64,000 nucleotides of DNA from Candidatus Phocaeicola excrementigallinarum (GTDB taxonomy: Bacteria > Bacteroidota > Bacteroidia > Bacteroidales > Bacteroidaceae): NCBI GenBank assembly GCA_019120125.1, contig DWVR01000025.1, positions 1 to 64,000 of the forward strand. Reading direction: 5' to 3'. A program made the translations under genes and the position numbers. The notes beneath the pieces were generated by a model. It did not search any database. It was not told the origin of the DNA and saw only the letters and a list, made by a program, of their open reading frames with translations. This document shows positions 2,315 through 58,277 of this stretch, piece by piece (position 1 is the first letter of the stretch; each line of letters opens with the position of its first letter).

Positions 2315-4198
2315 TCATTCCATCTCCAAAGTACCGATATATCCGTAAAGCTTGCGGTAGAACGGATGACGGGTCAGCGTGGAAGCGTCACCCAGAATGA
2401 TGAGCTTCATGCGTGCACGGGTAATCGCCACGTTCATGCGCCGCAGGTCGTTGAGAAAACCGATCTGCCCCTCTTCGTTGGCACGTACCAGACTGATGAG
2501 AATCACGTCGCGCTCCTGTCCCTGGAATCCGTCGACCGTGTTGACCGTAATGACGGAACGGTAAGGCTTGAAGAAACTGTCTTTCTTGAGCAACTGCCGG
2601 AGAAACTGCACCTGCGCCTTGTAAGGGGAAATCAGTCCCACATCAATCCGTTCCTCCAGAAAACGCTCACGTCCGATCTTGGTGATATAATTTTTCAGCT
2701 GCCCTACAGAGAGTTCCGCCTCAGCCTTGTTGATCCGCCCGTAACTGTCGCCCACAAACTCCTCATTGCAATCCATCCCTTCGGTATTGACCCACTCTAT
2801 CGGAGTATCGAAATCAAGGATGCTCCGGTATCTCACCTCAGGCGCAGACTGAAGCATTCCGCCATAGAACCAGTCGGAAGAGAAACGCATGATGGCATCG
2901 TTCATCCGGTACTGCACCTTCAACAACGACACGGCATCGGGCTTGTTTTTCACGACAGCCTGCATCAGTGTATGTCCCAGTCCCTGACGTGCCGCCTCCA
3001 CGCATTTCACGGTGGGAGGAAGCTGACAATGGTCGCCCGCCAGTATTACCCGGTCGGCCTTACGGATAGCTATCCAGCATGCCGCCTCGAGAGCCTGCGC
3101 CGCCTCATCGACAAACACCGTGCCATACTTCTGCCCGACAAGCACCCGGTTGGCACTTCCCGCCAACGTACAGGCTATGACGCGCGCCTCGCTGAACAGT
3201 GATTCATTGATACGTATCTCGAGGTCGGTGGCACGGTCCTTCAGTGAATTGATTTTTGTCCGCACGGACTCACGGTTGGAAGCTTTCCGCAACTGCGAAT
3301 AAAGTTCCCTGATCGCCTTGCGGATACTCCAAAGCTGCGGATAGTCGGGATGCGACTCGAAACGCCGCTCATAGGTGAACGACAACATTTTGTCGTTCAC
3401 CCGGCTGGGATTTCCTATCCGGAGCACACTCACCCCCCGGTCCACCAGCTTCTCGCTGATCCAGTCGACCGCCATATTGCTCTGCGCGCACACAAGCACC
3501 TGGTTCTCCCTGTGCAATGTCTCATAGATGGCCTCCACCAGCGTCGTGGTCTTTCCGGTTCCGGGAGGCCCATGCACAATGGCCACATCCTTGGCATGCA
3601 GAACCTTGTTGACGGCATCCTCCTGCGTACGGTTGAGCCACGGGAAACGGACCGGCTGAAAACTGAACACCGATAGCGGACGGGAGCCATGAAAAATGTC
3701 ACGCAACTCCGCCAGACGATTGTTCCTGGCCGAAATGACCTGCTTCAAAGCCTCGAACATCAGACGGTAACTGGTCTCGTCGAAATAAAGCTGCACGCCC
3801 AACACCTCCCTGCCCTGCAAGGCCAACAAGGCATCCGCATCAGGAAGTATCACCACCATGCGGTCCTCATCCACATAGTTCACCGTGGCCACAAAGTTCA
3901 GATACGAAAGTTTACCGCTCAGGTCCTGACTGAAGAAGCATACGGGACGGCCATACTCGAACACATGCTCGATGTCCTTGTCCTCCCTCCGTTCCACCTC
4001 AACCACAAGCTGGTTCAAGGCATTATAATAACTCCTCCCGATGTTCAAAGGATACCAGCACATGCCACGCTTTATCTTGCGCCCGATACCCATCACCTCG
4101 GTCTGTTGCCTGAACTGTTCTTTTTCGTATTCGTATTCCATTTTCAGCAACTCATACTGCCGCTGAAGATAAAGTATAGGAGATTCTGACATATTCAT
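2315..4198 (-). CDS. Superfamily 1 DNA/RNA helicase, IGHMBP2/Dna2/NAM7-like
   Basis: Walker A GPPGTGKTTT, Walker B VFVDEAAQA, motif III GDHCQLPPT, C-terminal VDGFQGQERD and NVAITRAR motifs. Confidence 0.92.
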   Translation of the reverse strand: MNMSESPILYLQRQYELLKMEYEYEKEQFRQQTEVMGIGRKIKRGMCWYPLNIGRSYYNALNQLVVEVERREDKDIEHVFEYGRPVCFFSQDLSGKLSYLNFVATVNYVDEDRMVVILPDADALLALQGREVLGVQLYFDETSYRLMFEALKQVISARNNRLAELRDIFHGSRPLSVFSFQPVRFPWLNRTQEDAVNKVLHAKDVAIVHGPPGTGKTTTLVEAIYETLHRENQVLVCAQSNMAVDWISEKLVDRGVSVLRIGNPSRVNDKMLSFTYERRFESHPDYPQLWSIRKAIRELYSQLRKASNRESVRTKINSLKDRATDLEIRINESLFSEARVIACTLAGSANRVLVGQKYGTVFVDEAAQALEAACWIAIRKADRVILAGDHCQLPPTVKCVEAARQGLGHTLMQAVVKNKPDAVSLLKVQYRMNDAIMRFSSDWFYGGMLQSAPEVRYRSILDFDTPIEWVNTEGMDCNEEFVGDSYGRINKAEAELSVGQLKNYITKIGRERFLEERIDVGLISPYKAQVQFLRQLLKKDSFFKPYRSVITVNTVDGFQGQERDVILISLVRANEEGQIGFLNDLRRMNVAITRARMKLIILGDASTLTRHPFYRKLYGYIGTLEME

Positions 4199-31339: not shown

Positions 31340-32011
31340 TTACTTTATTCCCAGACAGTAATTAATCAGCAGGAGCATATCGATGGTGTTGGCCGTATCA
31401 AGCTCCATCCGCCTGATGTAGTCCTTTATTTCTTCTTTGTGCGAGGGGAAAAGCTTCTGCAGATCCTTTACCCTTTTTATCTTTTTCTGCTTTCCGTTTA
31501 TGCTGATGTAATAGGTGTTGTCGCTCTTACGGGTGTAGACATCCGTGTTCTTCGCGCTCTGATTCTGGTAGGGGGTGTACTTTTCCGTCCCGTAAAGTCC
31601 CAGATTGGTCATCTTCAACGTGTACACGCTGCCTTGGGTCACCATGCCCAAGGCTCCTCTGGAACCGATGTTCACGTCCTTCAGCAGCCAGTCCACATAG
31701 ATGACGCCGTTCTTGGCGTTCACCACCTCCCGGAAGCCCTTGGCCGCAGGCACGAACTTGTGGCCCTCAATCGTGATGGTGTCCACCTGCGCGGGGTTGG
31801 TCATCTCCATCATGTCCTCCCCTTGCCGGAAATACATGGTCTTGTTGGCCGCGTCATAGTTCATCACGGCCTGGCTCGTGGTACGGTTCCTGAACTTGAT
31901 CTGTGCCGTGGTGAAGCTGTCGAACAGAAAAATCCTGTGGTATTGCTGTGCATAAAGAGGCGGCAATGCCATACACAGCTGCAATACGATGAATGTAACG
32001 AGTTTTCTCAT
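31340..32011 (-). CDS. Secreted hypothetical protein linked to SusD
   Basis: Signal peptide MRKLVTFIVLQLCMALPPLYAQ; no recognised enzymatic motif. Confidence 0.7.
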   Translation of the reverse strand: MRKLVTFIVLQLCMALPPLYAQQYHRIFLFDSFTTAQIKFRNRTTSQAVMNYDAANKTMYFRQGEDMMEMTNPAQVDTITIEGHKFVPAAKGFREVVNAKNGVIYVDWLLKDVNIGSRGALGMVTQGSVYTLKMTNLGLYGTEKYTPYQNQSAKNTDVYTRKSDNTYYISINGKQKKIKRVKDLQKLFPSHKEEIKDYIRRMELDTANTIDMLLLINYCLGIK

Positions 32012-32016
32012 ATATA

Positions 32017-32213
32017 AATGAAGAATTAAGAATGAAGAATGAAGAATAAAATAAATGAAGAATGAAGAGTGAAGAACAAAATAAATGAAGAATGAAAAGT
32101 GAAGAACTTAGAAATGAAATAATTTGTGTGAAATCAAGATTCTTCATTTCTCGCTTTTCATTTTATAAAATTCCTCATTCTTCATTCTTAATTCTTCATT
32201 TTCTAAGTTCTTC
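32017..32213. repeat. Purine-rich GAAGAATGAA repeat region with perfect 24-bp inverted arms and two 30-bp direct repeats
   Basis: AATGAAGAATTAAGAATGAAGAAT at 32017-32040, exact reverse complement at 32177-32200; direct repeats 32051-32080 / 32081-32110. Confidence 0.9.
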
Positions 32214-32285
32214 ATTTATAAAAGTGTTCCGGAACCTCACGGCCCCGGAAACACCACTACTTACGTTATATGTGCTAATTTCGGA

Positions 32286-34246: not shown

Positions 34247-37200
34247 TTAGAATGTAGCGTTAATGGTGAATGTATAGCTTGCCACGTACGGACTTACCGA
34301 ACGGATCATAAACTGACCGGCCTGAGTACCACGGAGAGACTCCGGATTGAAGTTGTTAGGCAGGGAGTTCAGCAGATAGCCCAAGTTGCGTCCTGTTACC
34401 GACAGATTGATGCCAGACGCACCGATCTTCTTCGCAAACTTGCCCGGCAAACGATAGCTCAAGGAAACCTCACGCAAGGCGATGTAGTTCAGTTCGTGGA
34501 ACCAGTCGTTGTTCTTCGTTACAGTGGCACGGCCCCATGAGTTGTTCCAGTAGTTCCAGGAAGAAGCGTGCTGCGGATCTACTATTTTACGTTCCACCAA
34601 GTCGGCATACAGCTCACCGCCTTCGGCGATGGTGTAAGTACCGGTCGGGGTGCTGATGGTCTGTCCGCCCGGCATGATGGCGTTCGGGATGATACCGTCG
34701 TCATATACCTTGCCGTCCCAGATAGAAGTGTAAGTGATACCTCCGTGTTCGGCGGATGTGCCGTTCAGAGAGCTTTCCAAGTAACCGTATGCAGTACCAT
34801 AGTGAGAACCGTAGATAGCCACCATACCACCGAAGCGCATGTCAAGAGAAGCGCTCAAGCTCCAGTCCTTGTATCTCAGAGTCGTATTGATAGAACCCAG
34901 GAAGTCAGGCTGGATAGAACCTACTGTTTCCACAACTCCCGAACGGTCGTAGTAAACGGCCTTGCGGGTTTCGTAAGAATCCAGACACAGGATAGGAAGG
35001 CCTGTATTCTTGTCAATCTTCGGAGCCGCGTCAGATTTCAGCAAACCATATTCACCACCCACTTCGGCTACAGAAGCGATACGGTAGTTACCGTAATCGG
35101 CGTCACCTTCCATTTCGATGAAGTTTGCCACATTTTCATGCAATTCCACAATTTTAGAACGGTTTCTTGTATAAGTGAAGTTCAAGTCCCAAGTCCAGTC
35201 CTTGGTAGAGATCGGAGTGGTGTTCAGCGCAATTTCCACACCCTGGTTCTGGATGTTACCGGCATTGATCAGCTGGTTGGAGATACCTGACTCGGAAGGA
35301 ACAGCGATTGTCATAATCTGGTCACGGGTATTTTCCTTATAGTAAGTGAAGTCGATACCGATGCGGTTGTCAATGAAACGCCAGTCGAGACCCACTTCCC
35401 ATGAACTCTTGCGCTCCGGCTTCAGATTCTGTGAGTAAGCGGTAGTCGGCACGCGCAGACCGTAGGTGTTGTCCAGACCATACAGCGAGTAGGCCGTATT
35501 GATGGTGTACGCGTCGGTGTCGTTACCTACCTGCGCCCATGATCCGCGGACTTTCAGGAATGAGATCCATGACGGCAGTTTCTCACGGAATGTCTCGCTG
35601 ATCAGCCAGGAAGCTGATACGGACGGGTAGAAGTAAGAATAGTTACCGTGCTGGTCGGAATAAACCAGTGAGGACGACCAGTCGTTACGTCCGGTGATAT
35701 CCAGATAAACCTGGTCTCTCCAGCTTACAGCCACCTGAGCGGCTACAGACAGGATGGTCTTTTCACCGGAAATGGTACCTGTGGAAACAAGGGCGTTCTT
35801 GGAGTTGCCCACAAAGAACTGGCCCGGAATGATCAGACCGCCGTTGGTCTGCTCCTGCAGTTCCTGCTGGTAGTTGTGGTAGTATTCGCCACGGAGGAAT
35901 CCGCTGAAGTTCCAGTCCTCAGTGAAACGCTTGTTCCACATGAAGTTGGCGTTCAGGTTGGTCTGTTCCTTGGTGTACTGGCCCAACTTGTACATACCGC
36001 CTTCGTTGGCGTAACCGCTACCCAATTCCTTGGATTCGTTGCGTTTGTAGTAGTAGTTGTAGTTTCCTTCAGCCACGAACTTCAACCAGTCGGTGAGGTC
36101 AGCCGTCAACTTCACGCTCGGACGAACCGAAGTTTCCTTCTGGGTATATTCGTTTTCAAATACGGACCACCATGTACCAAGACCCGGCAGGTTACCATAC
36201 TCGTCATTGTAGTTGTTGCTTGCCATACCTCCGTGCGAGCCTTTATACATGTTTCTGTATTTACGGGTATCATACATACGGCCCCATGTACCGTCGATGA
36301 ATCGCTCGCCGAAGTTGGTCTCACCACCCTGACGCGGAGTAGAGTTGGCGAATGAGATGCCCGCTTCGATTTCTACCTTACTGGTGATCTTGTGCGAAGC
36401 CTTTGCCATGAAAGAGAAACGCTGGAAACGGTTGTTCGGCGTATTACCGTCGGCATGCTTGAACGACATGGAGGTGTAGAACGAAGAAGTGTCATTTCCA
36501 CCCTGAATAGATACGTTGGTGTTCGAGTTGAAACCGTTGTCGTATGAATCCACGAAGTTGTCTTCATACGCCTGGTAAGGCACCATTGAATAATCATAGA
36601 ATTCGATGGGCTGACCGTCAAATTTTGGTCCCCATGAAGTATCTCCTGTCATCGGACCGAACGGTTGCACCGAACGGTCACCGTTGGCGTTCAGATAGAA
36701 CGAATCCGTGTCCTGCATGTTACCGGAAGACTTATAGTCTGAATATCCGGACATATAACCGTCGCCTCGTTCGTTCTGGAAGCTCGGTCCGCCGTACACA
36801 TGGTCGATACCGAATGTCTGGGTCACGCTGATGCCCAAGCCTTTCTTTCCCTTACCGCTCTTGGTGGTGATCACAACCGCACCGTTCAGACCGCGTGAAC
36901 CGTAAAGCGCGGTAGCGGCGGCACCTTTCAACACGGACACTGTCTCGAAATCGTCCGGGTTCAGGTTCTTCAGCTCGTTACCCCAGTCGGTATCACTGGT
37001 CGCCCAGTTCGCATCACCTTCCTTGATGTCGTTGCTGAGAATCACACCGTCCACCACATAGATAGGCTGGTTGTTCTTACCCAGTGTGGAGGCACCACGG
37101 ATCATAATACGTGAAGAACCGAACAGACCACCATCACCTGTGGAGATGTCCACACCGGCCACCTTACCTTGCAGGGCCTGTACCGGGTTGACCACATTGG

Positions 37201-37642
37201 CATTCAAGTCTTCTCCCTTCAATTCTGTCACCGCGTAACCCAAGGCCTTGCTCTCGCGCTTCATACCGAGGGCGGTCACCACCACCTCGTCCAGCGTCTG
37301 GCTGTCGGCTGTCAGCATCACGTTGAGCGGCTGTCCGTTCCAAGTGATCTCCTGAGTCGCGTATCCGATGTAGGAGATCTGGATGACATCACCCTTCTTC
37401 ACGTTGTTGAGCACGAACTTACCGTCGAGGTCCGTGATGTTACCGTTAGTAGTGCCTTTCACTACGACAGACGCACCGATGACACTCTCACCGGTCTCGT
37501 CCTTCACGATACCTGTACAACTTTCTCCCTGCTGCTGCACAGCCATCGGATTCGCTTCATTTCCGGACGAAGCATACAATGTCCCGCTTCCACCTGCAAG
37601 CAGGAACAATGCCAATCCTAAAAACTTACATTGTCTTTGCAT
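34247..37642 (-). CDS. SusC/RagA-family TonB-linked outer-membrane transporter
   Basis: CarboxypepD_reg-like N-terminus, LDEVVVTALGMKRESKALGYAV, plug domain GAAATALYGSRGLNGAVVITTKSGK, C-terminal beta-barrel. Confidence 0.96.
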   Translation of the reverse strand: MQRQCKFLGLALFLLAGGSGTLYASSGNEANPMAVQQQGESCTGIVKDETGESVIGASVVVKGTTNGNITDLDGKFVLNNVKKGDVIQISYIGYATQEITWNGQPLNVMLTADSQTLDEVVVTALGMKRESKALGYAVTELKGEDLNANVVNPVQALQGKVAGVDISTGDGGLFGSSRIMIRGASTLGKNNQPIYVVDGVILSNDIKEGDANWATSDTDWGNELKNLNPDDFETVSVLKGAAATALYGSRGLNGAVVITTKSGKGKKGLGISVTQTFGIDHVYGGPSFQNERGDGYMSGYSDYKSSGNMQDTDSFYLNANGDRSVQPFGPMTGDTSWGPKFDGQPIEFYDYSMVPYQAYEDNFVDSYDNGFNSNTNVSIQGGNDTSSFYTSMSFKHADGNTPNNRFQRFSFMAKASHKITSKVEIEAGISFANSTPRQGGETNFGERFIDGTWGRMYDTRKYRNMYKGSHGGMASNNYNDEYGNLPGLGTWWSVFENEYTQKETSVRPSVKLTADLTDWLKFVAEGNYNYYYKRNESKELGSGYANEGGMYKLGQYTKEQTNLNANFMWNKRFTEDWNFSGFLRGEYYHNYQQELQEQTNGGLIIPGQFFVGNSKNALVSTGTISGEKTILSVAAQVAVSWRDQVYLDITGRNDWSSSLVYSDQHGNYSYFYPSVSASWLISETFREKLPSWISFLKVRGSWAQVGNDTDAYTINTAYSLYGLDNTYGLRVPTTAYSQNLKPERKSSWEVGLDWRFIDNRIGIDFTYYKENTRDQIMTIAVPSESGISNQLINAGNIQNQGVEIALNTTPISTKDWTWDLNFTYTRNRSKIVELHENVANFIEMEGDADYGNYRIASVAEVGGEYGLLKSDAAPKIDKNTGLPILCLDSYETRKAVYYDRSGVVETVGSIQPDFLGSINTTLRYKDWSLSASLDMRFGGMVAIYGSHYGTAYGYLESSLNGTSAEHGGITYTSIWDGKVYDDGIIPNAIMPGGQTISTPTGTYTIAEGGELYADLVERKIVDPQHASSWNYWNNSWGRATVTKNNDWFHELNYIALREVSLSYRLPGKFAKKIGASGINLSVTGRNLGYLLNSLPNNFNPESLRGTQAGQFMIRSVSPYVASYTFTINATF

Positions 37643-37879: not shown

Positions 37880-37963
37880 AAAACGCCTTGACGTTTCACT
37901 TAAAACGTCTTGACGTTTCAAGCAAAACGCCCTGACGTTTCAGGTAAAACGCCTTGACGTTTT
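37880..37963. repeat. Array of four 18-bp palindromes, 22-bp period (copy 2, most regular)
   Basis: AAAACGCCTTGACGTTTC / AAAACGTCTTGACGTTTC / AAAACGCCCTGACGTTTC / AAAACGCCTTGACGTTTT starting 37880, 37902, 37924, 37946; spacers actt, aagc, aggt. Confidence 0.97.
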
Positions 37964-38013: not shown

Positions 38014-38769
38014 TCAGTCCAGAAACAGGTCATCGGGATAGCCGATGTCGACCAGAAACAGCGCGTTTCCGGGAGCGGACGTACCCGCACTGCAACGGTC
38101 CTTCTTTTCGATAATCCGGCGGAATCCCTCCACCGAGAGCTTGCCGCGTCCCACCTCGACCAAGGTCCCCACGATGGCGCGCACCATGTTGCGCAGAAAA
38201 CGGTCGGCCTGGATGGTGAACACCCATTCCTCCCCGCCCGTCTGTTCCCAACGCGCCTGCATGATGCGGCAGTTGTTGGTCTTGACGTCCGTATGCACCT
38301 TGCTGAAGCTCGTGAAGTCAGTATAGTCAGACAATGTCCGGGCCGCCTCGTTCATCTTGTCGAAATCAAGTTTCTGATACATCCGCCACACGTACCTCCG
38401 GTTGAACGGGTCTTTCCGTGTGGTGACATGATATTTATAGGTACGGTAGGTGGCATCGAAACGGGCATGCGCTTCCTGGCGCACACGGCGCACCCTGTAG
38501 ACGGAAATGTCCTGCGGAAGAATCCGGTTCAGCTTGTCGGCCATCATCTCCGGATCGGCCGGCCGCTCCAGATCAAAATGGGCCACCATCAGACGGGCAT
38601 GCACGCCGGCATCGGTGCGTCCGGCCCCTGTCACCTCGATGGAATCGTCGCGCAGGAACGTGACCAATGCCTTGGTGAGCGTCTCCTGCACACTCACCCC
38701 GTTGGGCTGCACCTGCCAGCCATGATAGTCGGTGCCGTCGTAGGCCAAATAAATGAAATACCTGAACAT
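38014..38769 (-). CDS. truA: tRNA pseudouridine synthase A
   Basis: [30 protein letters not shown] catalytic motif. Confidence 0.95.
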
Positions 38770-57188: not shown

Positions 57189-57272
57189 AAAACGCCTTGA
57201 CATTTTACCTGAAACGTAAGGACGTTTTGATCAAAACGCCTAGGCGTTTCAGGTAAAATGTCAAGGCGTTTT
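57189..57272. repeat. Array of four 18-bp palindromes, 22-bp period (copy 3; the whole array is itself near-palindromic)
   Basis: AAAACGCCTTGACATTTT / GAAACGTAAGGACGTTTT / AAAACGCCTAGGCGTTTC / AAAATGTCAAGGCGTTTT starting 57189, 57211, 57233, 57255; spacers acct, gatc, aggt. Confidence 0.97.
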
Positions 57273-57299: not shown

Positions 57300-58277
57300 T
57301 CACACGTAGAACTTCACGAGCAGACGGTTGAGCCACCCCCATCCCACACGGAACCAACGGCGGCTGCTCATCTGACGCCCGCCGAAACGGAGGATGAAAT
57401 CACGATAACCGTATTTCTTGAAAGGCAGTCCGGCGTCAATGAACTCAAAATGGTCGTAACCGTGGGCAAGGGCATACGCCATGGCATTCCATACGGCCAG
57501 CACACCGGGATACTGCAACGGATAGCTTTTCCGCATGCCTCCGGAAAAAAGCAGGTAAGCATCCTTTTCCGAAAACAGACAGACCGAACCGCCGATAATC
57601 TTCCCTTTATAACGCACGATGAAAATCCTGGCATGCTCGGACGACTGGCGGGACAGGGAAAGGAAAAACTTGATATCCGGAAGGTAACGGTGAATCTTGG
57701 ACGAATAATAACGGCGCAGCAGCATGAAGAACTCACGGACCTCCTCTTCCGTACGGGCCACATCCATCTCCGCCCCACTCTTCAACCCGCGGCTGATCTG
57801 ACGTTTCCTTGACTCGCTCATCCACTTGCCGATACGGTTTCCATGCAGCGAATTGCGCACCCGCATCCAACGCACGGGGAAATAGCCGCACTCACGGAAA
57901 TAACGGTAGCCGAACAAAGGTTCCTTCAAGTTACGGAACTCCAACAGAAACGAACGGTCCTTGAAACTGGAAGTGAAACAAGCCAGCAGTTCCCGGAAAA
58001 TCTCCTCCCTCGCAAAAGAAGAGGGAAAATACTCCCCTGCACCATAGACATACGTCTCGCGGAAAAAGAGTTTGAAACGGAAACAACGGCGGGTGATGCA
58101 AAGCAGTTTGCCTACCGCCTGTGTCCCCTCGTAAGCCACGAGCAACACGGGACGGAATCCCTTGGCCTGCTGCAATGCCTGAAACATTTCAACGGAATAA
58201 AAGACATTCGAACCCGGCAAGGAAGGGATATCTTCAGCTTTATAATATGTAGCCAGACGAAGTGCCATACATTGCAA
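57300..58277 (-). CDS. FemAB/GNAT-like acyltransferase
   Basis: GNAT-type C-terminal half (IFIVRYKGKIIGGSVCLFSEKDAYLLFSGG..YDHFEFIDAGLPFKKYGY). Confidence 0.75.
   Translation of the reverse strand: MQCMALRLATYYKAEDIPSLPGSNVFYSVEMFQALQQAKGFRPVLLVAYEGTQAVGKLLCITRRCFRFKLFFRETYVYGAGEYFPSSFAREEIFRELLACFTSSFKDRSFLLEFRNLKEPLFGYRYFRECGYFPVRWMRVRNSLHGNRIGKWMSESRKRQISRGLKSGAEMDVARTEEEVREFFMLLRRYYSSKIHRYLPDIKFFLSLSRQSSEHARIFIVRYKGKIIGGSVCLFSEKDAYLLFSGGMRKSYPLQYPGVLAVWNAMAYALAHGYDHFEFIDAGLPFKKYGYRDFILRFGGRQMSSRRWFRVGWGWLNRLLVKFYV

Follow-up and report, generated by a model that had tools for sequence, protein, structure and literature searches.

The window analysed here, the whole stretch of 64,000 nucleotides from Candidatus Phocaeicola excrementigallinarum, lies on contig C86 of the source genome (G000), a 2.75-Mb draft that is 93% complete. 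Three arrays of four dyads each are located in its intergenic gaps. The arrays, which have no strand assigned, and the neighbouring genes, which lie outside the elements and serve as context only, are listed below in order of position.

2153 to 2236, no strand: four-dyad array, diverged copy, with units starting at 2153, 2175, 2197 and 2219
2315 to 4198, minus strand: AAA_11/AAA_12 helicase, 3' end 78 bp from the 2153 array
34247 to 37546, minus strand: SusC/TonB-dependent receptor, 5' end on the side of the 37880 array away from truA
37880 to 37963, no strand: four-dyad array, main copy, 84 bp, with units at 37880-37897, 37902-37919, 37924-37941 and 37946-37963 and spacers ACTT, AAGC and AGGT
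38014 to 38769, minus strand: truA (tRNA pseudouridine synthase, PF01416), 3' end 50 bp from the 37880 array
57189 to 57272, no strand: four-dyad array, with units starting at 57189, 57211, 57233 and 57255
57300 to 58268, minus strand: GNAT-type acetyltransferase, 3' end 27 bp from the 57189 array

The preliminary description had reported four 18-bp dyads with a 22-bp period and 4-bp spacers at 37880, with further copies at 2153 and 57189, and our analysis confirms all three. It had also placed every copy in a gap with the 3' end of a minus-strand gene on one side and the 5' end of its neighbour on the other, which again holds, including truA and SusC at 37880; the 2153 array is flanked by the AAA helicase and an Asp-Al_Ex permease, and the 57189 array by the GNAT acetyltransferase and a glyoxalase. 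In the 57189 array, the reverse complement of unit 1 is exactly unit 4, and spacer 1 is related to spacer 3 in the same way. Overall, 12 unit matches were observed in the window, compared with 0.21 expected from shuffles, and a degenerate fourth array is found shortly beyond it on the same contig (C86:70601). The window also contains a long inverted repeat of short A-rich repeats (AATGAAGAATTAAGAATGAAGAA...) at 32021-32225, separate from the dyad arrays and directly downstream of a gene ending at 32011; a similar tract is present in the sister species G003 (L321:7394).

Globally, the arrays are a dispersed extragenic element with about 80-100 copies in the source genome, while a control pattern had 0. 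With up to three mismatches allowed, adjacent unit pairs numbered 263 and 266 on the two strands genome-wide and four-unit places numbered 52, each against 0 for the control; a sequence-only model yielded further four-unit places. Each array is built from eight 5-bp cores, AAACG and CGTTT alternating every 11 bp, with 6-bp words between them: four A words inside the dyads (e.g. CCTTGA/TCAAGG) and three B words between the dyads (e.g. TGATCA and CAAGTA/TACTTG). A dyad spans 16-18 bp, with AAACG...CGTTT half-sites around a 6-bp word, and the dyads are phased at 22 bp, or two helical turns. The outer ends of the array are nearly always AAAACG and CGTTTT. Chains were sought in the window and around the listed places; of the 80 detected there, 71 have exactly 8 cores (four units), two have five units, one has six, and the remainder are truncated. 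The strict 22-bp period of the preliminary description applies to the three window arrays but not to the whole genome: in roughly one quarter of arrays a single junction is shortened to 21 bp, the spacer being one base less, and these shortened spacers mostly adjoin units of the CCGAAG/CTTCGG type.

To place the arrays relative to genes, we used a home-made codon-usage caller, whose gene calls are an approximation. By these calls all 79 arrays are outside genes: 42 are in tandem gaps, 17 in convergent gaps, 14 in divergent gaps and 6 at contig ends. Thus 59 of the 79 arrays adjoin the 3' end of a called gene in a tandem or convergent gap, mostly just past the stop codon. In tandem gaps the 3' end of the upstream gene is the nearer one in 92% of cases (median 38 vs 177 bp, p 1e-5). 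The functions of 20 upstream genes showed no common theme.

We then compared the arrays with known repeat systems. Rfam 15 gave 0 matches above gathering score in the window, only weak chance hits, and a literature search covering few subscription papers found no description of such arrays, in line with the earlier remark that the family was not recognised. CRISPR arrays share partly palindromic repeats and a regular period, but CRISPR spacers are unique and about 26-72 bp long, whereas the arrays have 4-6-bp spacers from a limited dictionary and usually four units. None of the genes that adjoin the three arrays of the window is a cas gene, and the earlier judgement that 18-bp dyads with 4-bp spacers are not a CRISPR stands. 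Like MITEs and the intergenic repeats of Porphyromonas gingivalis, the arrays are short non-coding dispersed repeats of Bacteroidales; unlike them, the copies share no full-length sequence and carry no target-site duplication, flanking direct repeats being no more frequent than in shuffled pairing. A close likeness is to REP/BIME elements (GTAG and CGTC families; E. coli BIME-2 with its gyrase/IHF sites), which are also dispersed, extragenic, palindromic and located downstream of genes, with many copies, species-specific families and clustered units; the defining mark of these elements, 20-40-bp palindromes in many extragenic copies, applies to the arrays as well. However, REP superfamilies are marked by an unpaired GTAG or CGTC tag ending an asymmetric unit (PMC3733652), while the arrays have no such tag: their units are symmetric (AAACG..CGTTT), and CGTC occurs solely inside the half-site. 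Furthermore, the arrays are phased at 22 bp, their unit number is fixed within a species, their copies are more than 8 kb apart, and RAYT (Y1 transposase, PF01797) had 0 matches in the 93% complete source genome, compared with matches in five control genomes. On the features tested, the arrays work like REP superfamilies and yet are not members of them.

How far does the architecture extend to other species? Of 61 Phocaeicola genomes, 24 have arrays with the AAACG core, and the words differ from genome to genome. The rest of the family seldom carries them, and single cases turn up in Prevotella, Kaistella and others. Within one species the number of units hardly varies, but species differ: G000 has four, most arrays of G003 have three and strain An793 has five to six. 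The period stays at 21-22 bp throughout, and neither it nor the unit number varies freely. A core-free scan found 21/22-bp arrays with unrelated cores in G064 and G078, and weakly in others. Two sites were compared, truA and 57189: at each, G064 has four units at 21/22 bp with an unrelated sequence, and G078 and G011 lack arrays. The earlier proposal that geometry is kept while sequence diverges is thereby extended to about 80-100 copies and to other Phocaeicola, where 3-6 units at 21-22 bp appear with other words or cores, in some cases at the same sites. Three further occurrences can be recorded. In Kaistella chaponensis, a flavobacterial species far outside the genus, 22-bp arrays of AAACGTCCTTACGTTT units show a Phocaeicola-like architecture (L216:749 and L252:6624). 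G010 has a weak repeat with a 22-bp lag (CAAGTTCTG...) at L349:3902, which may be a relative. A search for viral spread gave one exact match among 2.9 million contigs filed as viral, in a longer mixed array with a 22-bp period and several different dyads (L433:11536-11760, IMGVR_UViG_3300035431_000002).

Closely related genomes reveal how the arrays change. G000 and its sister G003 have a median nucleotide identity of 93% over syntenic hits. Several arrays have been kept since the split of the two with 0-2 bases different (L102 is identical to L271), and the 57189 array differs from its G003 orthologue by 7 transitions. Other sites have matching flanks but exchanged arrays, a four-unit CCTTGA array facing a three-unit CTTCGG array (L112/L262, L113/L190, L125/L255, L135/L389, L149/L192, L151/L377 and the truA site). 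The three-unit CTTCGG family dominates G003; several of the partner arrays come from a named contig set whose arrays match those of G003. Unit gain and loss proceeds in exact 22-bp steps, as one orthologous array has 6, 5, 5 and 4 units in L264, L170, L227 and L286, respectively. These four, from P. mediterraneensis-type genomes, form a useful natural series in unit number. At one further site, G007 (B. mediterraneensis Marseille-P2644T) has a simple hairpin and G022 a six-unit array. In the paralogous pair C58:3053 and C71:2752 the spacer is inverted and the arm changes are matched; PMC8604942 describes this combination as what template switching leaves behind when it occurs between inverted repeats. 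In five related pairs, 5 compensatory changes were counted, compared with 1.8 expected under a random null (P 0.03), a modest excess that is only suggestive. The few sites comparable between relatives contained remnants, a replacement array or a diverged gap, and none was cleanly empty.

The arrays are also regularly spaced along the chromosome. We tested spacing on four complete contigs (418 kb) together with the listed positions. The 35 pairs of neighbouring arrays are on average 23.9 kb apart, with a minimum of 8.8 kb and a CV of 0.39; no pair is closer than 8 kb, where random placement would give 11.3. Because the array list was possibly incomplete, the complete contigs were rescanned with a weight matrix. 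The rescan of the 418 kb found 20 arrays, none in genes, with a minimum distance of 8.8 kb and a CV of 0.38 (P 2e-4 for each against random intergenic sites), and shuffled sequence gave 0. Degenerate arrays newly found in the rescan fell into large gaps. The largest gap left, on contig C45, holds a 21-bp array of four units from an unrelated family with TCCACG/CGTGGA dyads (C45:79380-79560, L393), nested between remnants of AAACG-type units (C45:79427). Arrays thus repel each other, with a mean spacing of 20-24 kb and none closer than 8.8 kb. G007, with at least 51 arrays, has a similar minimum of 8.1 kb among those listed (P 0.005), which puts the minimum spacing at about 8-9 kb; among the same arrays no ori/ter bias was seen (KS p 0.22).

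We next asked whether the working form is RNA or DNA. The fold energy (MFE) did not differ between the transcribed and the antisense strand (n 37, p 0.77), the outer words are identical on both strands, and no word shows strand bias. This lack of asymmetry favours a strand-symmetric DNA element and makes it less clear that the array works as RNA; bidirectional terminators would be compatible with the same symmetry. A single long hairpin of the whole array was rejected, as RNAalifold on 26 arrays gave a covariation term of 0.03 kcal/mol, that is, none. B1 and B3 words were not complementary beyond chance, and the complementarity of A2-A3, B1-B2 and B2-B3 words was below shuffled; this may reflect either avoidance of long palindromes or inheritance, and is not decisive. 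The anti-complementarity of Y1/R6 units (Fisher p 3e-11) was set aside as confounded by inherited CCTTGA/TCAAGG words.

Taken together, we tentatively read the arrays as a REP/BIME-like duplex-DNA element that marks the chromosome at regular intervals and may be a dimer-binding or topology site, a reading with a good chance of being right, if somewhat short of even. The array would act as duplex DNA, and its phased dyads would form a cluster of sites for a putative dimeric DNA-binding protein or topology enzyme, as in BIMEs; together, the arrays would make up a set of evenly spaced landmarks. Strand symmetry and even spacing speak for the binding-array role suggested earlier, whose protein partner is putative. 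Template switching, unit duplication or deletion and replacement of one array by another may keep re-making the arrays, so that the letters turn over while geometry and approximate chromosomal spacing stay. Copy number with a zero control, fixed unit number, intergenic position, spacing, strand symmetry and the same-site arrays of G064 all count for the landmark reading. On the other hand, a protein motif would be expected to be conserved across the genus, as parS and matS are, yet sequences turn over even between sister species; the G064 comparison consists of two orthologous sites, both array-free in G078 and G011; and the arrays listed in G007 lack ori/ter bias. The same points distinguish the arrays from the matS/MatP, Noc-binding, SlmA-binding and parS sets, with which they share palindromes dispersed along the chromosome, those of the arrays at regular spacing. 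The known sites are single conserved palindromes read by a conserved protein, usually with an ori/ter bias, whereas the arrays have 3-6 phased dyads, a sequence unconserved across the genus and no detected bias. A bolder version, rather unlikely in our view, is that the arrays represent a landmark class new in Bacteroidota and defined by geometry: 3-6 dyads at 21-22 bp, with their number, phase and a spacing of about 20 kb kept and the sequence rewritten in each species, read by a putative protein that either evolves fast or recognises shape or structure instead of letters.

Even spacing and same-site turnover fit a functional landmark, but they also fit a target-immune element re-invading old arrays. 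The arrays could then be a self-spreading REP- or MITE-like element with a putative enzyme and no host function, in which target immunity would produce the repulsion below 8 kb and a preference for existing arrays the same-site replacement. We consider this rather unlikely, though a serious contender. The species-specific families, as in REPs, the exchange of four-unit CCTTGA for three-unit CTTCGG arrays at orthologous sites and the foreign 21-bp array nested in AAACG remnants all suit it; the missing target-site duplication and the lack of a Y1/RAYT gene in the 93% complete genome do not. Moreover, recent copies should be near-identical, but the inner words differ from array to array, while several arrays that G000 and G003 have both kept since they diverged show only 0-2 base differences. 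Our preference for the landmark reading comes from two observations, that one spacing pattern is filled by different families and that orthologous positions are kept, the comparison covering few sites.

Less likely still, the arrays may be strong bidirectional intrinsic terminators or 3'-end stabilisers, with tandem RNA hairpins downstream of genes. With intrinsic terminators, including bidirectional ones, they share the location past stop codons and in convergent gaps, hairpin potential and ends formed by A-runs and T-runs, the T-run on the downstream side being slightly longer (p 0.06); the UUCG-type units in G003 and the simple hairpin of G007 in place of the six-unit array of G022 also fit. 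By contrast, the arrays have several phased dyads and strand symmetry in both fold energy and words, 14 of 79 lie between divergent genes, a consensus terminator scan finds just a weak match in the array, and terminators would be required every few kb rather than about every 20 kb. The strand symmetry and the divergent gaps likewise weaken the earlier idea of a transcription-boundary RNA cruciform. Finally, it is improbable that the arrays are functionless, immobile quasi-palindromes grown and homogenised by template switching and slippage, since these processes, which the inverted spacer with matched arms, the modest compensatory excess and the exact 22-bp unit indels do recall, cannot alone give the same AAACG core at about 100 loci, a species-fixed unit number and even spacing.

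If the arrays are landmarks, gut Bacteroidales would possess a dispersed set of chromosome-organising or supercoiling sites that can be found by sequence and tested in cultured Phocaeicola (P. mediterraneensis, P. plebeius and P. barnesiae). If they spread by themselves, the arrays would belong to an extragenic element that keeps its copies apart by immunity, replaces existing copies in place and has no known enzyme. In either case it is unusual for conserved geometry to go together with a free sequence and regular spacing, which raises the question of what reads the arrays.
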